From Hyphomicrobiales bacterium (GTDB lineage: Bacteria > Pseudomonadota > Alphaproteobacteria > Rhizobiales > Beijerinckiaceae): 49,153 nt of DNA. Position numbers and translations under genes: made by a program. Under the pieces are notes generated by a model. That model did not search any database and was not told the DNA's origin. It worked only from the letters and a program-made list of their open reading frames with translations. Where the stretch lies: the NCBI GenBank assembly GCA_028290405.1, contig JAQGJX010000036.1:1-49153 (forward strand), read 5' to 3'. This document shows, in pieces, positions 18,872-39,030 of the stretch. Position 1 is the first letter of the stretch. Every line of letters starts with the position of its first letter.

Positions 18872-20572
18872 TCAATCCTCGAAGAGGCCGAAGGTCCACA
18901 GCGAGGCGCCGGCCGGCACGTTCGCGAGGTTCGGATCGCCCGAACGCAGCGCGTAGACGCCGCCGATGCCGCTCATCACGGTGACGTACTGCTTGCCGTC
19001 GCGTTCCCAGGTGATCGGCTGGCCGATGATGCCCGACGGGGTCTGGAAGCTCCACAGCACCTTGCCGGTGTCCGCATCGAGAGCCTGGAACTCGCCCGTC
19101 ATCACGCCGGTGAACACGAGGTTGCTCGCAGTCACCATGGTGGACGAGAAGTTGGGGCTCTTGTACGGCGTTTCCCACTTGGACTTGCCGGTCAGCGGAT
19201 CGACCGCCTTCAGGTAGCCAAGCACGTTGGGATCGTCGAGCACGGTGGTGCGCTTGACGCTGCCGGGGCCAGAGGGGCGGCCCATGGTCAGGTTCTTGGG
19301 CGGATCGCCGGCCTGGTAGGTCATGCCAACGTGGATGACGTTGATGTACAGCGCGCCGGTCAGCGGGCTGAACGCCATGTGCTGCCAGTTCGTCGAACCG
19401 GAGACGGACGGCCAGACGGTGACGTTTTCGCCGGCGAGCGCGCCCTTGAAGACGTCGTTCACCTTCGGGCGGCCGGTCTTCAGGTCCACGCCGTCGGCCC
19501 AGTTCACCTTGTCGAACGCGTTGGCGGCGAGCAGCTTGCCGTCCGCCGCGTCGAGCACGTAGAGGAAGCCGTTGCGGTTCGCCTGCATGACGACCTTGCG
19601 CGGCTTGCCTTCGACGTTGATCGTCGCGATGACGGGCGTCTGCACCGCGTCATAGTCGAACGGGTCCTCCGGGCTCGTCTGATAGTACCAAACGCGCTCG
19701 CCCGTCTTCGGACGAATGGCGAAGATAGCGTTGGTGAACAGGTTGTCGCCCTTGCGGCCGCGCGGGTTCCACGGCGAGGGATTGCCCACGCCCCAGTACA
19801 CGAGGTCGAGGTCCGCGTCGTACGTGCCCGTCACCCAGGAGCTGCCGCCGCCGACCTTGGCGGAATCGCCCGCCCACGTCTCGTGGCCCGGCTCGCCTTC
19901 CTTGGGGATCGTGTACAGGCGCCAGAGGTGCTTGCCGGTCTCCGCGTCATAGCCTTCGATGAAGCCGCGGATGCCGTATTCAGCGCCGGCGACGCCCGTG
20001 ATGAGAACGCCGTTGGAGATGAGCGGCGCGCCGGTCATCGAGTAGCCGGTGTCGGCGGAAATCTCTGGCGACACGACGTCATAGACGACCTTGCCGGTTT
20101 TCGCGTCCATTGCGACGATGTGGTTGTCCAGCGTGACGCGGATGACCTTGCCGTTGTATATGGCTGCGCCGCGGTTGACGATGCCGCAGCACACGATGCG
20201 CAGCACCTCCGGCGGGTAGTCGTGCACGGTCTTCCAGACCTGCTTGCCAGTGACCGCGTCGACCGCGACGGTCGCGCTGTGCGACGTGGTGTACACCATG
20301 CCGTTGGAGACCAGCGGGAACGCTTCCGCGCCGCGCGTGTCGTTCATGGAATACGACCACTTGGGCACCAGGCGCTTGACGTTGTCCTTGGTGATGCTCT
20401 TCAGCGGGCTGTAGCGCTGGCCCTGAAGGCCCATGCCGTAAACCAGCACGTCGCCGGGCGTTTCATGGTCCTTCTTGAGATCCTCCAGCGTCTGCGCGGA
20501 GAGCCCGCCAGCAGCCGCGAGCGCGAATGCGCCGGCAAGGAAAAAAGGCGCGGAGCGATGCGTCCTCTTCAT
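18872..20572 (-). CDS. PQQ-dependent alcohol dehydrogenase, lanthanide-type signature
   Basis: A 566-residue periplasmic quinoprotein of the methanol/ethanol dehydrogenase family, oxidising alcohols with PQQ and passing electrons to a cytochrome c. The signal peptide ends at LSA-QT (about 26). The adjacent-cysteine ring is Cys128-Cys129. Metal ligands by alignment are Glu198 (AGAEYG), Asn264 (VGNPSPWNP) and the catalytic Asp306. Asp308, two residues later in DPFDYDAVQ, is the extra aspartate that marks lanthanide-dependent enzymes (XoxF, ExaF, PedH); calcium enzymes have Ala or Ser there. GGAGG lies upstream of ATG 20572. Whether methanol or longer alcohols are preferred is not clear. Confidence 0.93.
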   Translation of the reverse strand: MKRTHRSAPFFLAGAFALAAAGGLSAQTLEDLKKDHETPGDVLVYGMGLQGQRYSPLKSITKDNVKRLVPKWSYSMNDTRGAEAFPLVSNGMVYTTSHSATVAVDAVTGKQVWKTVHDYPPEVLRIVCCGIVNRGAAIYNGKVIRVTLDNHIVAMDAKTGKVVYDVVSPEISADTGYSMTGAPLISNGVLITGVAGAEYGIRGFIEGYDAETGKHLWRLYTIPKEGEPGHETWAGDSAKVGGGSSWVTGTYDADLDLVYWGVGNPSPWNPRGRKGDNLFTNAIFAIRPKTGERVWYYQTSPEDPFDYDAVQTPVIATINVEGKPRKVVMQANRNGFLYVLDAADGKLLAANAFDKVNWADGVDLKTGRPKVNDVFKGALAGENVTVWPSVSGSTNWQHMAFSPLTGALYINVIHVGMTYQAGDPPKNLTMGRPSGPGSVKRTTVLDDPNVLGYLKAVDPLTGKSKWETPYKSPNFSSTMVTASNLVFTGVMTGEFQALDADTGKVLWSFQTPSGIIGQPITWERDGKQYVTVMSGIGGVYALRSGDPNLANVPAGASLWTFGLFED

Positions 20573-26390: not shown

Positions 26391-27090
26391 CGTCGCGATT
26401 CAGCGCAAGGCCTTCGAGTCGTCGTCGGGCGCGCGCATCGAGGTGATGGCGGACCTGCGCTTCCGGATCGAGAGCGCCCAGACCGTCGCCATCATGGGCC
26501 CTTCGGGCTGCGGCAAGTCCACGCTGCTGCGCATGATCGCAGGGCTGGACGCCGATTACGAGGGCGGGATCGTGCGCGAGGGGCAAGGCCGCACGGGCTT
26601 CGTCTTTCAGGAGCCGACCTTGTTGGCCTGGCGCACGGTGGAGCAGAACATCCGCCTGGTCATGCAGCGCCCCGACGACCAAGATGCGCTGCTCGAGGGC
26701 ATCCTGGAGCGCATGGAGCTTATGGCGCACAGGCGCCATTTCCCGGGCGAGCTGTCGGTGGGTCTTGCGCGCCGCGTCGCCATCGGCCGCGCGCTGGCCG
26801 CCCTGCCGGGCCTGCTGTTGCTGGACGAACCCTTTGCGTCGCTCGACGCGCCGCTGATCGCGCGCTTGCAGGCCCAGTTGAAGGCGGAGCTGGCGCTGCG
26901 GCCCACGACCACGATCCTCGTCACCCATCGCTTCGAAGACGCGCTGAGCATCGCCAGCCGCGTGCTCGTGTTCTCCGCGCGGCCCAGCCATGTCCTCGCA
27001 GACATCGCCCTGGGGCCTGACGTGCAGGCCGATCCTGCGCGCGCCGACGCCATTCGGCGCGAGATAGAACACGTGATCGGCCAGCCCTAG
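26350..27090 (+). CDS. NitT/TauT-type ABC ATPase with degenerate signature
   Basis: A 246-residue ATPase with Walker A GPSGCGKST, Q-loop in FVFQEPTLLAWRTV, Walker B GLLLLDEPFASLD and switch His in LVTHRFEDA. The ABC signature reads ELSVGLARRVAIGRAL, so the normal LSGGQ is LSVGL. Loss of two key signature residues should weaken ATP hydrolysis or reflect an altered mechanism. The start is TTG 26350 inside the permease gene. Its TAG stop shares the bases CTAG with the stop of the convergent receptor gene. Confidence 0.87.
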   Translation: MKDVSHAGVPDSLDVAIQRKAFESSSGARIEVMADLRFRIESAQTVAIMGPSGCGKSTLLRMIAGLDADYEGGIVREGQGRTGFVFQEPTLLAWRTVEQNIRLVMQRPDDQDALLEGILERMELMAHRRHFPGELSVGLARRVAIGRALAALPGLLLLDEPFASLDAPLIARLQAQLKAELALRPTTTILVTHRFEDALSIASRVLVFSARPSHVLADIALGPDVQADPARADAIRREIEHVIGQP

Positions 27091-29393
27091 AACGTCGCCC
27101 GGGCGCCGACATAGACGGTGCGCGGACGCGCGGGACTGAACGTGCGCGGATCGGTGAAGTTCGCGAAGGCGATCTGGTCCATCTCGAAATACGTCCCGAA
27201 GGCGTAGACGCGCCGGTCGAACAGGTTGTCGACGCGGGCGAACACCTCGAACGTCTTGTCCACGCGATAGGCCGCGCCTGCGTTGACGAGCGCATAGCCC
27301 GGCAACTTTGGGTTCTGGTTCGCCGCGTCCCCTTCCAGATACTGGCCGCTGACGAGGATCGTGTCCGCGTGCACTTTGATGCTGGGCGTGAGGGCGAAGT
27401 CCAGGCCGGCCTTGAAGCGGTGACGCGGGATCATCGGCAGGCGGTCGCCGCGCGTCACATGAATCTCGCCGTTCGCGTCCGCGCTCGGATTGTTGGGCGA
27501 GGACAACGTCAGACCGTTGCGGAACGTGGCGTCGAGAAGCGTGTAGCTTGCAAAGACGCTCAGGCGTTCGCCCCGCCACGTCGCATCAAGCTCCAGCCCC
27601 TGCCGGCGCGTCGCGCCCATGTTGGCGAAATACCCGAAGCCCTGAATTGCGCTGGGCACGTTGAGGATTTCGTTGCGCGTGCGCGTGCTGAAGACGCCTG
27701 CTTTCCAAGAAATGCGCCCATAGGCGTCCGGCAGGTCGAGCGCGCCGCGCAGGCCCGCCTCCGCCGTGGTGGACACCACCTGCTTGAGGGGCGGGTCGGA
27801 CACAAGGAAGCTGTCGATCAGGCAGGGCCGCAAGGGGTCGGAGCATCCAAGCTCCAGCGGCGTGGGGGCGCGATTGGCCTGCGACACGCCAGCATAAGCG
27901 GTGAGGTCCGGCGCCAGCTTGTAGGTCAGCCCCGCAAGCGGATTGAACCGCTGCACGCGCGTGACGCCGTTCAGCGCGGTTCCCAACTGGTCCTCGAGCA
28001 CGATGCGCGCCGCATTGAAGCGCCCGCCCACGGTCGCCGACAGGTCCTTGGTCACGTCCAGCGTGTCGCTGGCCCAGGCCCCCAGATACGTGGAGGCGGC
28101 GTCCAGCGACACCGGCCCGATGGCCGTAGGAGAACCGGACGGCCCCAGGAACACGCCGGAGCCGGTCACGCGGAAGTCCCGTCCGATCACCCCAAGCTCG
28201 CTCAAGGCGTCGAAGCGCGTCGCCGCATGATCGACGCTGGCGCCCATCTGGAACCGGTTTGCGCGGTCCAGCAGCGTCCCCGCATGGGTGGCCTGCGCTT
28301 GCGCGCCAAGGGTGCGCGACGTCGTGCGCGTGCGGTCGATCTGGCCTAGCTGCGCGCCGTTGAACGTGTCGGAGAGCTGAGCGCCGTTCAGCCCGTTGGC
28401 GGGCGTCGCGTCGTCGCCGAAGCACAGCAGGCCGGGAACGGCGCAGGGCTGCGTCTCGGTGGTGTTGCCGTCCACGTGCCGGCGCTGGAAGCCCCGCACG
28501 TAGGCGTTGGCGTCGACGGTCCACTCCGCACTGGGACGCAGGCTGGCTGTCAGGTTCGCCTGCTGCATGCTTTGGCGCGTGGTCTGGGGCGTCGTGTAGA
28601 TCGCGCTCCAGTCGCGGCGCAACAATTCCACGGGCGCGGCCGCGCTGGCGCCGAACATGTTGTCCGCGGCGGCGAGGTTGAGATGCGCCTCGCCCGTGTC
28701 CAGCTTCACGCCGACGTCGCCGTAGAAGCGGCGGACGGTTGATCCCGAGCTGCGGCGAAATCCGTTGTCGCGCAGCGCTTCGAGCGCCACGTAGGTGGCG
28801 ACGTTCTCCGCCTGCTTGCCAAACTGGAGGGCGGTGGAGAGACGCCCGAAGCTGCCGCCCGTCACCTCGGCCTCGGCGCCTTGGTAGGAGAAGCCGTCCT
28901 TCATCTTCAGCCGCACGGCGCCGCCGAGCGCATTCAGGCCGAAGGCTGGATTGTTGCCGCCCACCTCCGCGCGCTCCACGGCGACGACGGGTATGAAATC
29001 CCAGTTGACGCTATCGCCGAAGGCTTCGTTGATGCGCACGCCGTTCTGGTAGACAGCCAGGCCCTGCGGCGAGCCCGCGACCGGGGAAGCTTCGAACCCG
29101 CGATAGCTCAGGGCCGGTTGAAGCGCGTTCCCGGACGCCTCGGATATGGAGACGCTCGATAGCCGCCGGTCCAGCGCGCCCGCGACGCCCTGGGCGCCCG
29201 TCTGCTCGATGGACGCCGCGTCAAGCGACTGAACGTTCGCCGGAACCTTGTCGAGCGCCTGGGCGACGCCGAGCGGCGAGACTCCGACCACTTCAATGAC
29301 AGGCAGCTCGACGCTCTGGGGAGACTCGGCCTGCGCCGCAGCGCCGGTCGCGGCCGTAACCGCCAGCAGGCCGACAAAGAATTCGCTCCGCAC
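27087..29393 (-). CDS. TonB-dependent outer-membrane receptor at PQQ locus
   Basis: A 768-residue TonB-dependent receptor. After a signal peptide (ending AAA-QA, about residue 21) comes a candidate TonB box (PVIEVVGV), a plug domain (about 45-165, with LSYRGF, VYQNGVRIN and NALGGAVRLKMK) and a beta-barrel ending in a terminal Phe (YVGARATF), as outer-membrane proteins require. The start is GTG 29393 with AGGGTGG upstream. It is convergent with the second importer of the PQQ locus. By context it may take up a lanthanide chelate as LutH does, but TonB receptors cannot be assigned a ligand from sequence alone. Confidence 0.9.
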   Translation of the reverse strand: MRSEFFVGLLAVTAATGAAAQAESPQSVELPVIEVVGVSPLGVAQALDKVPANVQSLDAASIEQTGAQGVAGALDRRLSSVSISEASGNALQPALSYRGFEASPVAGSPQGLAVYQNGVRINEAFGDSVNWDFIPVVAVERAEVGGNNPAFGLNALGGAVRLKMKDGFSYQGAEAEVTGGSFGRLSTALQFGKQAENVATYVALEALRDNGFRRSSGSTVRRFYGDVGVKLDTGEAHLNLAAADNMFGASAAAPVELLRRDWSAIYTTPQTTRQSMQQANLTASLRPSAEWTVDANAYVRGFQRRHVDGNTTETQPCAVPGLLCFGDDATPANGLNGAQLSDTFNGAQLGQIDRTRTTSRTLGAQAQATHAGTLLDRANRFQMGASVDHAATRFDALSELGVIGRDFRVTGSGVFLGPSGSPTAIGPVSLDAASTYLGAWASDTLDVTKDLSATVGGRFNAARIVLEDQLGTALNGVTRVQRFNPLAGLTYKLAPDLTAYAGVSQANRAPTPLELGCSDPLRPCLIDSFLVSDPPLKQVVSTTAEAGLRGALDLPDAYGRISWKAGVFSTRTRNEILNVPSAIQGFGYFANMGATRRQGLELDATWRGERLSVFASYTLLDATFRNGLTLSSPNNPSADANGEIHVTRGDRLPMIPRHRFKAGLDFALTPSIKVHADTILVSGQYLEGDAANQNPKLPGYALVNAGAAYRVDKTFEVFARVDNLFDRRVYAFGTYFEMDQIAFANFTDPRTFSPARPRTVYVGARATF

Positions 29394-32710: not shown

Positions 32711-34084
32711 TCACGCAATGGCTTCTCCGGCGTGCGGCGTCAGCTTGCGCGGCGGCGGCTGCGCCTTGAGGATGGCCTTCGGGTTCAACGAACTTTCCGG
32801 AAGACCGATCGCATAGCAAAAACCGGTTTCCAGCGGGCTGATCTCGGCTTTCCCGCCCAGCGCGCGGGTGGCCCGCGTGATGAGATGGGTGCCAAAGCCC
32901 GTGCGTTCGGAGGCGGCGGGCCTGGGGCCGCCCAGCTCGTCCCAACGCACCAGAACCTGGCCGGACGCAAAGTCGCGCGTCACCGTCACGCGCACATGCC
33001 CCGCCTCGTTGGACCACGCGCCGTACTTCACGCAATTCGTGGTGATCTCGTGCAGGATGAGAGCCAGCGGCAACGCGGCCTGCGAGCTCACCTGCAAGTC
33101 GGGACAGACGATCTGGATGCGGTCTTCCTTGCCGTGCGCGTCCGCCTCGAGCTTGACGAGGTCCAGCAAGGTCACCGCCGCCTCGCGCTTCATGATGAGG
33201 TCGTACGCCTTCACGAGGGCGCCCAGCTGGTCCGCGATGCGGGCGCTCGCAAGCTTGTTGTCGTCGGTGTTGCGCAGCACCTGGATGACGGTGGACTGCA
33301 CCACCGTGATCATGTTGCGCAGGCGATGGTTCAACTCGCGCACGACAAGCTGGAACTGCTGCTCGCGCTCCTCCTGCTCCGTGCGGTCGATGGCGACCGT
33401 CATCATGTGCGGATCCTTGTCGAGCAGGCCCGACATGGGAAGCCCGATGAACTCCCAGATGAGGACCTTGCCGTCCGCCGTCTTCAGCTTGTACGGCAGG
33501 GACGTCTTGTCTCCCGGGGCGATGCTGGCCACCGCGCCGTGCCCGACGATGCGGGCCTCCACTTCCTGCGGCGCCTGCGGATAAGCCAAACGCACCCAGT
33601 CCTTCAACGTCTGCAATTCGCCGCGCGAATACCCTGTGCGTTCCACCCAGCCGTCGCTGACCACGATGAACCGCCCGTCCTGCGCGCGCACCACCACCGG
33701 CACCGGCAGCCGCTCCACGAGCTGCCGCCAGCTTTCGGCGGACGCAGTGGAGCTGCGCCCCAGCGCGAACGTGCGACCGCCCAGCCACACGAGCATCGCC
33801 CCCACAAGGAAGAAGATCACAAGGTTGGCGTGCTGGGTCTGGGTATCGACGGCGGGGCTGTCGGAGACGTGAAACTGGAGAAACCACACGGCGAGCAACG
33901 AGAGCGTGAGCGCCGCGGCCCCATAGCGCCAGCCCCAGAAAATGGCCGGCGCGGCGACCGCGGGAAAGAACGTCGCCGCCAGCAACGCTTGCGGATAGAT
34001 GGGTTCGATCAACATGCGCACCAGCAGGGCTGACGCGACGCAGGCGAGGAGTCCACAGGTGCGGACAGCGACTTGTGACCACAT
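32711..34084 (-). CDS. Membrane-bound HWE-type sensor histidine kinase
   Basis: A 457-residue kinase. The N-terminus has three to four membrane helices (about 8-25, 31-52, 55-72, 85-102) resembling a DUF4118-type sensor. A PAS domain follows (about 115-235, with GWVERTGYSRGEL). The HWE dimerisation region carries the phospho-acceptor His253 in RELNHRLRNM. The ATPase part has LHEITTNCVKYGAWS and the WxE-like VRWDELGG, then GFGTHLI. HWE kinases are common in alphaproteobacteria, often in light or general-stress pathways. No response regulator is adjacent, so it is an orphan kinase here. Confidence 0.92.
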   Translation of the reverse strand: MWSQVAVRTCGLLACVASALLVRMLIEPIYPQALLAATFFPAVAAPAIFWGWRYGAAALTLSLLAVWFLQFHVSDSPAVDTQTQHANLVIFFLVGAMLVWLGGRTFALGRSSTASAESWRQLVERLPVPVVVRAQDGRFIVVSDGWVERTGYSRGELQTLKDWVRLAYPQAPQEVEARIVGHGAVASIAPGDKTSLPYKLKTADGKVLIWEFIGLPMSGLLDKDPHMMTVAIDRTEQEEREQQFQLVVRELNHRLRNMITVVQSTVIQVLRNTDDNKLASARIADQLGALVKAYDLIMKREAAVTLLDLVKLEADAHGKEDRIQIVCPDLQVSSQAALPLALILHEITTNCVKYGAWSNEAGHVRVTVTRDFASGQVLVRWDELGGPRPAASERTGFGTHLITRATRALGGKAEISPLETGFCYAIGLPESSLNPKAILKAQPPPRKLTPHAGEAIA

Positions 34085-34385: not shown

Positions 34386-35186
34386 ATGCCTCATCCATTG
34401 ATCGCCAAGCATCGCAACACAAACTTCGCCATGCTCAGCGCGCCAGAGCGGGCGAGCGCGCTCGAAGACATCAAGGAGGCGCTCGGATCAGGCGGCGCGG
34501 CCAAGTCCGCCAAGACCCTCGACCATGACGACCGCATCGAACTGCTGAGGATCTGGATGGCGGTCCGCGAGAGCGCGGGAGCGGGCGCCGGCCACGCGGC
34601 GCAGCCCGCAAAATCCAAGGGGCGGCGGTTCGCGTGGCGTCCGCAATTCCCCGTGCTGCGCGCCCTCGCCGGGGCGTTCAAAGGCCTGAAGGGCGCCGAC
34701 TACGGGTTCCTGTTCGTCGCCACGGCGGTGAGCGTGTTCGTTATTTATCTGGGGGTCCATTCGATGCAGGAATCCCTGCGCATCGAAGTCGTGAAGCGCG
34801 ACGCAGAGGCGATCGTGGCCTGGATCAAGGACGTGGGCGAGAAGCGCGCCGACGCCGCGTTCGAGCCCGCCGAGTGCCGCAAGCCGGGAGCCACGACCTG
34901 GCAGGCCTGCCGAGCGGCGCTGTCGCGGCAGGGCGGCCCTGCGTTCGGCATGCTCAACCCGTTCGACGCGACCCGCCCGTTGTTTTCGCCAAAATGCGAC
35001 ATCAGCGACATCAGCAGCGTCGGCAGCATCGTCATCGACAAGGGCGCGCAGCCTTCAGGCGCCGCCTCGATCTCCTATTCGGCCATCGACGACGCAGAGC
35101 CCGCCGGCAAGGCCTTGCTCCTTCGCGTCACGGTCTGCGGCCGTGGCTTTCATCCCATCAAGGTCGCCGCCGACCTCGCCTTCTAG
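34386..35186 (+). CDS. Single-pass membrane protein upstream of channel
   Basis: A 266-residue protein with a cytoplasmic N-terminal part of about 100 residues, one membrane helix (about 105-124, YGFLFVATAVSVFVIYLGVH) and a C-terminal periplasmic domain of about 140 residues with four cysteines (ECRKPG, ACRAAL, KCDIS, VCGRG). The N-terminal half has a helical region with charged repeats. I recognise no family. The gap to the channel gene is 14 bases, so the two are almost certainly cotranscribed. It may be an auxiliary subunit of the channel; this is inferred from position only. Confidence 0.75.
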   Translation: MPHPLIAKHRNTNFAMLSAPERASALEDIKEALGSGGAAKSAKTLDHDDRIELLRIWMAVRESAGAGAGHAAQPAKSKGRRFAWRPQFPVLRALAGAFKGLKGADYGFLFVATAVSVFVIYLGVHSMQESLRIEVVKRDAEAIVAWIKDVGEKRADAAFEPAECRKPGATTWQACRAALSRQGGPAFGMLNPFDATRPLFSPKCDISDISSVGSIVIDKGAQPSGAASISYSAIDDAEPAGKALLLRVTVCGRGFHPIKVAADLAF

Positions 35187-35200
35187 CGCGGAGCTCACCC

Positions 35201-36802
35201 ATGGACGCGCACGCAAACCCCGTCGGCCACGCGCCGCTTCGCATACGCGAGCGCCTCTATCGCTGGCTGTACGACGCCGGCGACGGTTCAGCGCGCGGCG
35301 AGAAGATCGAGATGTGGCTGTCGTTGCTCATCATCGCCAATTTCGCCGCGATGATCCTGACGACGATCCCGGCGTTCGATCCCTACGAACGACAGCTTCA
35401 TTACTTTGAAATGCTGTCGATGGTGATCTTCACCACCGAATACGCGGCGCGGCTTTTCATCGCCCCGGCCGATCCCGCTTTCTCCGCCAGCCGGTTCCCG
35501 CGCCTGGCCTATGCGCGAACGTTCTTCGCCCTCGTGGACCTGTTGGTCATCCTGCCGTTCCTCTTGTCGGCGTTCGTCGCGCTGGACTTGCGCCTGCTGC
35601 GCATCCTTCGCATGTTGCGCATTCTCAAGCTCATGCGGGTGCTTCTGCCGGCGTTCCACGAGTTCGCGCAATTGAACAAGGGCCGCACCTTCCGCCAGAA
35701 GGTCCACGCCTTCGCCTTCCCCAGCGCCTACGGCGGAAAGCTGCACGGTTATTACGAGCTGTTCATCGTCGGCTGGGTGCTGCTGTCCGTGCTCGCCGTC
35801 ATTCTCGAGTCGGTCGACTCCATCTTCTACAACCTGGCTGTGGAGTTCGTCGCGCTCGACGCCATCGCGGTGCTGGTCTTCTCGATTGAATACATGATGC
35901 GCTTCTACTCCTGCGTGGAGGAGCCGAAATTCCAGAAGTGGCTCAGCGGCCGCGTGAACTACGCGCGAGGTCCGGCGCCGCTCATCGACCTTCTGGCCAT
36001 TCTGCCGTTCTTTCTCGAAATCTTCCTGCATCACCTGATCGACCTGCGGTTCCTGCGCTCCTTCCGCCTCATGCGATTGTTCAAGCTTGCGCGCTACAGC
36101 GGCTCCACGTCGACGCTGTTCTCCATCGTGCGGCGCGAACTTCCCGTGATCGCCGCCTCGGCGTTCTGCATGATGCTGCTCGTCATCCTCGCGGCGAGCT
36201 TTGGCTACCTCTTCGAACATGACGCCCAGCCGGACAAGTTCGAGAATATTCCCACGGCAATCTATTGGGCGGTGATCACGCTCGCCAGCGTGGGGTATGG
36301 CGACATTTCGCCCATCACCCCCATGGGGCGCCTGATGACGACCGTCATGGCGCTCATGGGCATCGGCCTCTTCGCCATTCCCGCGTCCATCCTGTCCTCG
36401 GCGTTCATGCATGAAATGCAGTCGCAGCGTCAGGCGGTGGAAAACCAGCTCTCGGGAATGCTCGCCGACGGCGTGCTGTCGGACGAGGAGCACGCCGAGG
36501 TGCAACGCTTCGCGCGCAGCCTCAACATTCCCCTAGACCAGCTTGAAGTGCTGATCGACAAGGCCAAGCGCGAGAACGACGAGCGGCAGGCGAACGACAT
36601 GTTCCTCCCGGTCGAGTTTCTGGTCGCCCACACGGAGATCGCCGTCGCGCAGTTCCACATGCTGTTCGAGCAGTTGCGCCGCCTCGCCGAACTCCCGAAC
36701 GCGGCGGACATGCAGGCGCGCATGGAAAGCGCCAACACCGCACGCAAGAGCGAGTGGGACACATGGCGGCTGCTGCGCGACGCGTCAGAGAAGAAGGACT
36801 GA
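35201..36802 (+). CDS. K+ channel with two tandem voltage-sensor domains
   Basis: A 533-residue protein with about ten membrane helices. The first voltage-sensor domain spans about 38-150: acidic S2 (Glu80), S3 (Asp113), and S4 with positive residues every third position (Arg131, 134, 137, 140, Lys143, Arg146). The second spans about 186-298: Glu230, Asp263, and S4 with Arg283, 286, 289, 292, Lys295, Arg298. One pore follows: S5 (about 314-338), filter TLASVGYGD (360-368) and S6 (about 377-402). The SVGYG filter implies K+ selectivity. The C-terminus (about 415-455, LADGVLSDEEHAEV) resembles a TerB- or EF-hand-like helical domain. GGAG lies 7 bases upstream of ATG 35201. Confidence 0.9.
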   Translation: MDAHANPVGHAPLRIRERLYRWLYDAGDGSARGEKIEMWLSLLIIANFAAMILTTIPAFDPYERQLHYFEMLSMVIFTTEYAARLFIAPADPAFSASRFPRLAYARTFFALVDLLVILPFLLSAFVALDLRLLRILRMLRILKLMRVLLPAFHEFAQLNKGRTFRQKVHAFAFPSAYGGKLHGYYELFIVGWVLLSVLAVILESVDSIFYNLAVEFVALDAIAVLVFSIEYMMRFYSCVEEPKFQKWLSGRVNYARGPAPLIDLLAILPFFLEIFLHHLIDLRFLRSFRLMRLFKLARYSGSTSTLFSIVRRELPVIAASAFCMMLLVILAASFGYLFEHDAQPDKFENIPTAIYWAVITLASVGYGDISPITPMGRLMTTVMALMGIGLFAIPASILSSAFMHEMQSQRQAVENQLSGMLADGVLSDEEHAEVQRFARSLNIPLDQLEVLIDKAKRENDERQANDMFLPVEFLVAHTEIAVAQFHMLFEQLRRLAELPNAADMQARMESANTARKSEWDTWRLLRDASEKKD

Positions 36803-36847: not shown

Positions 36848-38824
36848 CTAGAACGCGCTGGTGAAGCCTGCATAGGCGGCGCGTCCGGTCTGCCGAAAGC
36901 CGAAGGCTTCGACGTAGCGCTTGTCGGTCAGGTTCTCGCCGCGCGCGAACACGCTCACGCTGTCGCTGACCTTGTATTCCGCCCGCAGGTCGTACCGCAC
37001 GAACGAAGCGAGCCGGACCCGCTCCGACTGATAGGCGGTTTCATTGTAATAAACGTCGTCCCGCGCGCCGACGATGCGGATGACGGGCTCGATCACGAGA
37101 GCCGCCGTCGGCGTCCACGCGAGCGACGCCCGCGCCTCGTTGGCGGGCCTGCGCAACAAGGGCAAGCCGCTGAGCAGCGGGCGCCCGGCCGACAGGTCTT
37201 TCGTCGTCAGGTGCGTGTAGGACACGCGCACCTTCAGCACGTCGGCAGGCTGGATCTCCGCGCCGAACTCAACGCCGGTCGCGCTGGCGGCCGCAACATT
37301 ATAGTAGTGATAAAGAGGCGCATCCGCCGTGATGAGATTTTGCATCCGGGTGTCGAAATAGGTGACGAAAACCTTGAGGCGCCTGTCCCACAGATATTGG
37401 TCGACGCCTATGTCCCACCCGCGCGACGTCTCCGGCCGCAAGTTGGGGTTGCCGTAGAGCGGGTCCGCAAGCTGATAGAGCGAGGGCGATTTCGCCCCTG
37501 TCCCGAAAGACGACCGCACCTTCGTGCCCGTTTCGTCGATCACGTAGGCGCCCGTCAGGCGATAGGTCCAGAACGCGCCGGACGTCGACACGTTGTCCAC
37601 GCGGCCGCCCGCCGAAAGATGAAGCCTGTTGAACAGCGACACCGAATAGAGCGCGTACGCTGAACCCGTGCTCTGGCTCCCTCCGCCGGGAGTGACTTTC
37701 GCGGCCGGCAGGATATCCTCGATTTTGGAGGTCGCCTTCTCGGTTTCATAGCGAACGCCCGTCGTGAGCTGCCCAAAAGCCCCGAGCCGCAGATCGTTCT
37801 GAGCCTCGGTTCCAAAGCGCGCGCCCACGTAGCGCAGCCTCGACAGGTAATCGGCGACATAGACCGGTTCGTTCAGGTCGTCCCAGTTCGCGCTGTACAG
37901 GTCGCGCGAGACGGCCGTGTAGTTTCGCCGCGTCTGGCTCTGGGACGCGGTGAGCGTCAACTTGCCGTCGCCATACTCGATGATGGCGCGTTGAAAGGCC
38001 GACCCCACGAAGCCGCGCGAGTTCGACGCGGAATCCGGTTGCAATCCATAGGCGGCGTCATATTCGATCTGCGTGCGCAGGGCGGTTCCGCCCGCCTCCA
38101 GCGTCAACCATTCGTTGGCGCGATACGACACGCGCCCGGAGGCCGCCTGGCGCGCAGTGGCGTCGTTCTCGCGCCCGGCCGCATAACGCGAGAAACCGTT
38201 GGTGCGAAACTGGTTCAGCACGAACGAATAGCTGACGTCCTTCGTGGAGCCGGACACGCCGGCGCTCGTCGCGAGGGTCCCGTAGGAGCCCGCTTCCGCG
38301 CGCACAACGGTGCGCGCCGGCCCCTCGCCTTTGCGGGTGATGATGTTGATGACGCCCCCGATGGCGTCCGAACCGTACAGCGCGGACTGCGGCCCGCGCA
38401 GAACTTCAATGCGCTCGATGTTGATGGGCGCCAGCAACGCGAAGTCCACTTCGCCGCCGGTGGACGAGGGATCGTTCGCCCGCACGCCATCGATCAGCAC
38501 CAGCGTATGCCGCGAGTCCGAACCGCGCAGATAGACGGTGCTGGTGGAACCGGGACCGGACGTTTCGTTGATCGTGACGCCCGGCACGCCTTGCAGAACG
38601 TCCTTGAACGACCGGGGACCCGCCGTTTCGATCTCCTCGCGGGAGATGACCGTGACGGCCGACCCGGTCTTCTGGATCGCCTGTTCGTCGCGAATGGCCG
38701 TTACGGTGATTTCGGGGAGCGTGTCCGCCGCGCTCTGGGCTGCGGCCGTGCATGCGTAAAAAGACGAGCATGCGAATAGAGAAGCGCCGGCCAGCGTGGC
38801 CGCGCCCCATGTGGGCTTCGACAT
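36848..38824 (-). CDS. btuB: TonB-dependent vitamin B12 receptor (BtuB-like)
   Basis: A 658-residue outer-membrane receptor. After the signal peptide comes a TonB box (EITVTAI), then the plug (about 48-160) with VLIDGVRANDP and RIEVLRGPQSALYGSDAIGGVINIIT, which is typical of BtuB. The barrel ends in Phe (YAGFTSAF). ATG 38824 has GGAGG 5 bases upstream; reading further upstream would run into the riboswitch. The cobalamin riboswitch in its leader identifies the ligand family as B12 or a precursor. No btuF, btuCD or cob genes are next to it in this window. Confidence 0.93.
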   Translation of the reverse strand: MSKPTWGAATLAGASLFACSSFYACTAAAQSAADTLPEITVTAIRDEQAIQKTGSAVTVISREEIETAGPRSFKDVLQGVPGVTINETSGPGSTSTVYLRGSDSRHTLVLIDGVRANDPSSTGGEVDFALLAPINIERIEVLRGPQSALYGSDAIGGVINIITRKGEGPARTVVRAEAGSYGTLATSAGVSGSTKDVSYSFVLNQFRTNGFSRYAAGRENDATARQAASGRVSYRANEWLTLEAGGTALRTQIEYDAAYGLQPDSASNSRGFVGSAFQRAIIEYGDGKLTLTASQSQTRRNYTAVSRDLYSANWDDLNEPVYVADYLSRLRYVGARFGTEAQNDLRLGAFGQLTTGVRYETEKATSKIEDILPAAKVTPGGGSQSTGSAYALYSVSLFNRLHLSAGGRVDNVSTSGAFWTYRLTGAYVIDETGTKVRSSFGTGAKSPSLYQLADPLYGNPNLRPETSRGWDIGVDQYLWDRRLKVFVTYFDTRMQNLITADAPLYHYYNVAAASATGVEFGAEIQPADVLKVRVSYTHLTTKDLSAGRPLLSGLPLLRRPANEARASLAWTPTAALVIEPVIRIVGARDDVYYNETAYQSERVRLASFVRYDLRAEYKVSDSVSVFARGENLTDKRYVEAFGFRQTGRAAYAGFTSAF

Positions 38825-38835
38825 ATGATCCTCCA

Positions 38836-38852
38836 GCCGACCCGCCGTCGGC
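38836..38852 (-). promoter_or_regulatory. Hairpin at ribosome-binding site, riboswitch expression platform
   Basis: GCCGAC (38836-38841) and GTCGGC (38847-38852) can form a 6-bp stem next to the ribosome-binding site (38831-38835) of the BtuB-like gene. Its position between the aptamer and the start codon fits a translational on/off switch. Pairing with the aptamer cannot be tested here. Confidence 0.4.
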
Positions 38853-38864
38853 ATTAGGTTGCAT

Positions 38865-39030
38865 GTGTCGCAGGCCGGTATCCTGGCTCGACGGCTGTAC
38901 GCGCTGCAGACCTTCCCAGACGAATTCCGTCCAGTGGCAAGCAGCCAGCCGTTCACAGTTGCGGGGGCAGCGCGGTTTGATCCGACTTCCCGTTTACTCA
39001 GGCTTCACCCTGAGCACCTACGCGAAACCT
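38865..39030 (-). ncRNA. Cobalamin riboswitch (RF00174-type)
   Basis: Read on the minus strand this leader has the conserved blocks of the adenosylcobalamin aptamer in order: a 5' AGGTGC, AACGGGAA, the B12 box GCTGCCCCCGCAACTGT (38955-38971), CCACTGG, TCTGGGAAGG, and the 3' element GAGCCAGGATACCGGCC. It lies directly upstream of the BtuB-like gene, so high cobalamin should lower receptor synthesis. The distance from the aptamer 3' end to the start codon is about 40 bases, consistent with a short expression platform. Confidence 0.95.

Follow-up and report, generated by a model that had tools for sequence, protein, structure and literature searches.

Two neighbouring genes on the forward strand of the window (the whole stretch of 49,153 nucleotides that was analysed) are described here. 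One codes for a K+ channel with two voltage sensors in tandem, VSD1 (outer) and VSD2 (pore-proximal), and the other, directly upstream, is a conserved gene referred to below as the partner, which ends 14 nt before the ATG of the channel (Table 1). The initial annotation had placed the channel reading frame correctly (35201-36802) and had recognized six positive residues at every third position of each S4; their positions were right as well, with the refinement that the fifth is a lysine (143 and 295) and the others are arginines. On the opposite strand, an HWE-type histidine kinase with a DUF4118 region (32711-34084) adjoins the partner gene, and the next gene after the channel codes for a TonB-dependent receptor (36848-38956, Pfam plug and barrel). 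Further away on that strand are another TonB-dependent receptor gene (27087-29393, again with plug and barrel) and a PQQ-dependent dehydrogenase-type beta-propeller protein (18872-20572, Pfam).

Table 1. Position of the partner gene, the channel gene and the recognizable parts of the channel within the window.
Feature	Position	Strand	Remarks
Conserved partner gene	34386..35186	+	266 aa; one transmembrane helix ~106-124; homologues upstream of channels
GGAG, likely ribosome-binding site of the channel gene	35190..35193	+	Sequence reading; 7 nt before the ATG
Tandem-sensor K+ channel gene	35201..36802	+	533 aa; VSD1-VSD2-pore-C-terminal helices
VSD1, outer voltage sensor, aa 32-158	35294..35674	+	Pfam Ion_trans; four model helices
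S4 of VSD1 (R131 R134 R137 R140 K143 R146)	35591..35638	+	Alignment of 45
Inter-sensor linker, aa 159-178, NKGRTFRQKV..., conserved	35675..35734	+	Top-residue frequency 0.80, 45 sequences
VSD2, pore-proximal voltage sensor, aa 179-302 (F227, E230, D263)	35735..36106	+	Pfam, model, alignment
S4 of VSD2 (R283 R286 R289 R292 K295 R298)	36047..36094	+	Alignment of 45
Pore domain S5-P-S6, aa 303-410	36107..36430	+	Ion_trans_2 match 325-402
K+ selectivity filter SVGYGD, aa 363-368, within TLASVGYGD	36287..36304	+	Sequence
C-terminal helices, aa 411-533, least conserved large part	36431..36799	+	Model; frequency 0.52

The architecture of the channel, two complete S1-S4 sensors followed by a single K+ pore, is firm. 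Residues 1-185 alone matched the Pfam family Ion_trans (E 7e-14, 52 bits, cut-off 25), while the protein from aa 174 onward gave a second match to Ion_trans (E 1.6e-29, 103 bits) together with one to Ion_trans_2 (62.5 bits). This was the only pore match in the chain, and the protein thus lacks the additional pore unit of TPC, tandem Kv and TOK channels. The AlphaFold monomer model (45 aligned sequences, mean pLDDT 80, pTM 0.64) folds VSD1 with confidence (pLDDT 81-93 in ten-residue blocks) into helices S1-S4 at residues 32-55, 57-90, 108-125 and 130-158. Those of VSD2 occupy 179-204, 206-240, 258-276 and 282-299, followed by S5, the pore helix and S6; the filter residues 365-367 stay below a pLDDT of 50, a poor loop as may be expected of a monomer. 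The claim of two sensor units before one SVGYGD pore was therefore borne out by the Ion_trans matches, the model helices and the homologues described below, and so was the expectation that the N-terminal part folds as a sensor, since residues 32-158 form four helices in the monomer model and match Ion_trans as well. A plain hydropathy scan, the other check of the membrane segments, agreed in part: it recovered four segments in VSD1, three in VSD2, then S5, the pore helix, S6 and one C-terminal window, and missed the S4 of VSD2. Given this less clean picture, the figure of ten segments is based on homology and the model. As a control of the sensor profile, exactly one sensor was found in each of 24 related channels from viral contigs.

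Voltage-gated channels are understood as having one sensor per pore-forming repeat. The sensor hallmarks of Kv channels (F..E in S2, an Asp in S3 and a basic residue at every third position of S4) are found twice in the window protein, with F77, E80 and D113 as the charge-transfer residues of VSD1, and a K+ signature filter lies in a P-loop between S5 and S6. The six transmembrane segments with one sensor per pore are not there; instead, two sensors precede the pore. With the sensor and filter features present and the one-sensor-per-pore rule broken, the protein is, judging from its sequence, a variant of the voltage-gated K+ channels with extra sensor(s), and its gating would presumably be by voltage. 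VSD2 plus pore found human KCNQ5/KCNQ2 as best PDB sequence match (E 8e-27, from aa 174 on), VSD1 alone matched best the sensors of KCNQ2 (E 3.8e-5) and the whole model, compared with Foldseek, retrieved KCNQ2 first (E 4e-10), with KCNQ and Kv4 channels leading a table that gives no residue ranges. The likeness to KCNQ (Kv7) and other six-helix Kv channels covers the sensor and pore match and the K+ filter; the window channel differs in being bacterial, in the one extra complete sensor in front and in the partner gene upstream.

Internal duplication is also known from other channels. Tandem 6TM-6TM Kv-like channels have been described in protists, and TOK and TPC channels are listed along with them (PMC7576140). 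There too the first and the second repeats form clades of their own, but what is repeated are pore units (6TM-6TM or 6TM-2TM), whereas the window channel repeats the sensor only and keeps one pore. The VSD-VSD-pore layout does not appear in the available portions of PMC7576140 or PMC12332018. The initial annotation had known of no bacterial channel with this layout, and no description was found in text searches of the open-licence PMC literature, judged by titles and the openings of abstracts, a collection that leaves subscription papers mostly outside.

The conservation of both sensors was examined in an alignment of 45 sequences, the window channel and 44 out of 76 uncut homologues retained by an 88% identity filter, the 44 being 46-65% identical to the window channel. 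In VSD1, residues F77, E80, R84, D113, R140, K143 and R146 were present in 45/45 sequences and R131, R134 and R137 in 44/45, the deviations being a His, a Lys and a gap. The VSD2 counterparts, all six S4 charges included, were found in every sequence. One position where the window channel itself departs from the rest is Thr54 in VSD1, a Glu in the other 44. Mean top-residue frequencies over the 45 sequences were 0.84 for the pore, 0.80 for the inter-sensor linker, 0.74 for VSD2, 0.70 for VSD1 and lowest for the C-terminus (0.52). Median dN/dS values over 31 pairs followed the same order (pore 0.15, linker 0.24, VSD2 0.27, VSD1 0.36, C-terminus 0.72); they are rough, being regional dN over whole-gene dS by a simple method, with dS up to 1.2 and pairs that are not independent. 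As a rough estimate, VSD1 appears to be under constraint. In a broader alignment of 14 sequences, reaching down to ~41% identity, each of the two sensors has acidic residues in S2 and S3 and charges in S4 that vary little or not at all.

A scan of named genome contigs returned at least 534 encoding stretches, from which the best 80 were examined (L051-L130); since only these were kept, the totals are lower bounds and the list of taxa is biased towards near relatives. All of the best 80 loci hold a two-sensor open reading frame, which answers the call of the initial annotation for conserved homologues; 79 have the pore match and the remaining one (L063) is cut by the contig end. The filter is TLASVGYGD in 80 of the 81 two-sensor-plus-pore frames of these best 80 loci, the last one being unread. 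Six of the loci (L051-L056) are titled Beijerinckiaceae, Rhizobiales or Hyphomicrobiales, and 72 of the other 74 Burkholderiales, Betaproteobacteria or members of these groups, the exceptions being L088 and L098. Among the best 80, the carriers on the Burkholderiales side include Limnohabitans, Polynucleobacter, Ramlibacter and Comamonadaceae. Some carriers are named strains not labelled as metagenome bins (Polynucleobacter hallstattensis MWH-Hall10, Limnohabitans sp. Rim11 and Rhizobiales bacterium TNE-4). Many look, by title or genus, like samples from ponds, lakes or reservoirs, an uncounted impression. Two titles are at odds with their genes: L088 (CALPPP020000011.1, Rickettsia typhi) and L100 (CALQBT020000121.1, Bordetella parapertussis) resemble Comamonadaceae in gene layout and identity, and the bin labels may be wrong.

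Closer to the window, 104 of the 149 genomes of its family in the GTDB sense (its own genome counted) had some match to the channel, and in 14 of the 149, among the matches listed, both sensors and the pore were spanned; a further genome, G085, has the gene truncated at a contig end. The other listed matches covered less, mostly VSD2 and the pore, as an ordinary one-sensor channel would. In its genus, 14 of 51 genomes, again with its own counted, were matched by the two-sensor profile (E≤1e-50), and each of the 19 matches listed covers both sensors. At E≤1e-40 the window channel alone spans both sensors in a class sample of 385 genomes, and the window channel and G864 alone do so in a phylum sample of 398. 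These family, class and phylum searches used sampled genomes and E cut-offs, so that weaker relatives may be missed. G864 belongs to another family than the window, and of the 249 genomes of that family five, all single-contig, have the channel.

With the window protein as query no relative was confirmed in a viral scan, and with alignment A1 there were 24 relatives, all one-sensor. Among 95 matching plasmid records, none had one place covering 80% of the channel protein. The best plasmid match is a two-sensor protein annotated as 'ion transporter' (WP_159082572.1) on a plasmid of Gemmobacter aquarius from fresh water. Its S4 charges are partly eroded in both sensors, which indicates that an outer sensor need not stay fully charged. 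For this gene (L177:3722-5197) no upstream gene is listed in 3.7 kb, in a gene table that is incomplete. Some genomes have two tandem-sensor genes in opposite orientation, ~15 kb apart in L035 (G028:C15) and, in similar pairs, ~21 and ~31 kb apart in G1168 and G1172.

Multiplication of sensors goes one step further in genus g29 of the window's family, where 7 of 12 genomes have three sensors and one pore in a single frame. These frames (692-732 aa from stop to stop) carry the filter TLTSIGYGD, and all three S4s read R-R-R-R-K-R; one of these proteins was shown to have three Ion_trans stretches in Pfam. The other five g29 genomes gave one contig-cut match, one 427-aa frame with a partial outer sensor and, in three, nothing at E≤1e-50. 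No four-sensor frame was found among the loci examined. A tree of the individual sensors (120 rows, 133 columns) leaves 47 of its 117 inner branches open. It unites the outer sensors of the main group, to which the window channel belongs, in a single clade (SH-aLRT 99). Both outer sensors of the triple channels fall, with a support of 90, beside the outer sensor of distant two-sensor channels, and their third sensor lies among the pore-proximal ones; the most likely source of the triple layout is therefore another duplication of the outer sensor. When the tree was repeated without the long-branch rows L040, L031 and L044, the outer sensors came together with a support of only 63.7, and constraining the inner sensors together (p 0.69) or all tandem sensors together (p 0.73) was not rejected. 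These trees allow the tandem layout to have arisen once, but do not prove it.

The partner gene accompanies the channel with great regularity. Among the best 80 of the at least 534 loci it lies directly upstream of 75 of the 77 two-sensor genes with more than 250 nt of upstream sequence, the two exceptions being L119 and the second channel gene of L126. The gap between the two genes, measured at 52 loci with the channel start assumed, has a median of 8 nt and ranges from -49 to 86. Whole genomes give the same picture. In the family of G864, channel and partner occur in the same 5 of 249 genomes, side by side, and in the family of the window the partner was found in 7 of 149, each time beside the channel; that is, in 12 of 398 genomes and never without the channel (cut-offs 1e-5 and 1e-3). 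Another nine genomes, selected for having the channel, contained one partner match each (9/9), and G028, with its two channel genes, has a single one. A search of plasmids for the partner gave no match.

The partner protein of the window matches nothing in Pfam or NCBIfam, and its best hits were at E 1.2 in Foldseek, where no solved structure proved related, and E 0.4 in a PDB profile search. Among 62 members searched against Pfam at E≤0.01, the matches were FtsL_2 (one member, E 0.00084) and Arch_flagellin (one member, E 0.007), with no KCNE family. In the model of the partner (pLDDT 90), the only membrane span lies within a long helix (103-150), and the domain that follows has four strands at its end, an order that gives a pilin-like impression. 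In the 62 rows of the partner alignment (A3), C164, W172, C175, N191, C204, G213 and C251 are invariant. The basic stretch ahead of the span, together with the cysteines, leads us to infer a periplasmic C-terminal domain with disulfides.

KCNE proteins are single-pass auxiliary subunits of KCNQ voltage-gated K+ channels. The partner is likewise single-pass (by hydropathy) and paired, as a gene, with a presumably voltage-gated K+ channel, with which it may also be in contact; it differs from KCNE by its cysteine-bearing C-terminal domain and by a gene that adjoins that of the channel. The partner is most likely an auxiliary subunit of the channel complex. It was not found beside the two-sensor channels of the distant clade (~41% identity) or beside the three-sensor channels, and no gene common to all the distant-clade neighbourhoods was seen. 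In the distant clade VSD1 is kept without the partner, which therefore cannot explain VSD1 in general; for the same reason, modulation by voltage is probably the older role of VSD1 and the partner a later addition.

The reading that we favour, with some confidence, is that of a voltage-gated K+ channel in which VSD2 opens the pore, VSD1 modulates the opening and the partner acts as auxiliary subunit. Four subunits would assemble into a presumed tetramer with one K+ pore and eight sensors (the three-sensor subunits of the sister genus would give twelve). VSD2, whose connection to the pore is an S4-S5 linker of the KCNQ and Kv kind, would open it, while VSD1, connected to the start of VSD2 through the conserved linker, would move with voltage and shift the range or steepness of pore opening without opening the pore itself. 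The partner would join the same complex, like KCNE on KCNQ, and some condition in the periplasm may be signalled through it to the sensors. What the data above establish are the architecture, its conservation and the pairing of the genes; the tetramer, the gating by voltage, the roles of the two sensors, the side of the membrane on which the partner domain lies and its physical contact with the channel are deduced from them.

Three other explanations compete with this reading. The sensor could be a structural module (an anchor, a docking site for the partner or an aid to assembly) whose charges stabilise the fold, leaving VSD2 as the sole sensor. The somewhat lower conservation of VSD1 than of VSD2, in both residue frequency and dN/dS, fits this idea, and in the main group the partner must dock somewhere. 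Yet nothing in the role of an anchor would require F77, E80, D113 and six S4 charges to persist in 44-45 of 45 sequences, in a protein whose own C-terminus drifts (0.52), nor would both outer sensors of the seven triple channels be expected to keep their six charges. With VSD1 intact and constrained, we rank a second, modulating sensor above a silent anchor in likelihood, and we give the structural explanation roughly one chance in four. Much less probable is that VSD1 provides a proton or cation pathway next to the K+ pore, as the initial annotation had contemplated. VSD-only proteins such as Hv1 conduct protons, and in Hv1 and the voltage-sensor phosphatases, as with VSD1, the sensor is not directly attached to a pore, although VSD1 shares its chain with a second sensor and a K+ pore. 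Hv1 has a selectivity Asp in S1 (Asp112) and a Trp in S4. VSD1 has no Trp in its S4, and at what we take to be the position of Asp112 it has Asn47, conserved in 44 of 45 sequences with a Ser in the other, unlike an Hv1-type pathway. Its best matches are KCNQ sensors, with no Hv1 entry among the 40 PDB sequences matching at E≤1. The proton-channel reading was rejected on the basis of Asn47 and the missing Hv1 match. The last of the three, a fused or mis-assembled pair of channel genes, was also rejected and has a negligible probability, nothing having been found in its favour: the two-sensor layout is continuous in all of the best 80 loci of the at least 534 stretches, in 14 of the 51 genomes of the window's own genus (its own genome counted) and in five single-contig genomes of another family.

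A different question is whether the tandem-sensor subunit works alone. In the best 80 of the at least 534 loci, 74 two-sensor genes have over 500 nt of sequence behind them; for 34 of these the next gene, in the same orientation, is a six-helix channel-like one, and in 31 of the 34 a second such gene comes after it. Two types can be told apart by their filters, op2 with TSG(Y/F)GN (33 genes, picked by that pattern) and op3 (30 genes picked by (S/A)GWGN, with filters mostly (I/V)SGWGN), all from the best 80 loci; the filter of the tandem channel in the same comparison is TLASVGYGD. Both types keep basic S4s, one op2 and one op3 gene were shown to match Ion_trans, and in 29 of the 34 the order by filter is op2 then op3, partly overlapping. 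Overlapping TSGYGN/SGWGN gene pairs are seen in Burkholderiales at L062:1736-3600, L078:7647-9499, L101:7606-9488 and similar places. The presence of such altered filters next to a canonical one hints at a mixed tetramer. That the tandem-sensor subunit forms a heteromer with two altered-filter six-helix subunits, the window gene being the lone-subunit form of such a system, is a possibility to reckon with, even if we incline against it. The six-helix genes are found downstream neither in the window nor in L051-L056, and are thus not needed for the form present in the window; moreover, in one of the 29 ordered pairs two overlapping frames share the op2-type gene between them (L108:2752-3757), either a broken gene or a sequencing error.

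The upstream partner, the three-sensor relatives and the operons with extra channel-like genes go beyond what the initial annotation contained. A bolder reading, which we regard as rather doubtful, would join them: sensors multiplied before one pore (eight or twelve per tetramer), in the main branch a dedicated single-pass partner relaying an outside signal through its cysteine-bearing periplasmic domain to the outer sensor and, in many Burkholderiales, heteromers with two six-helix subunits of altered filter. If true, a single bacterial operon would encode a voltage-gated channel of several subunits. Natural channels whose subunits have two or three intact sensors make the coupling of extra sensors to a pore directly accessible to study, as well as the additivity of gating charge and the spread of sensors as evolutionary modules. 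The partner family and the altered-filter operons suggest an auxiliary, perhaps heteromeric, assembly of bacterial channels, and such tandem-sensor systems are carried by small genes and by named strains.
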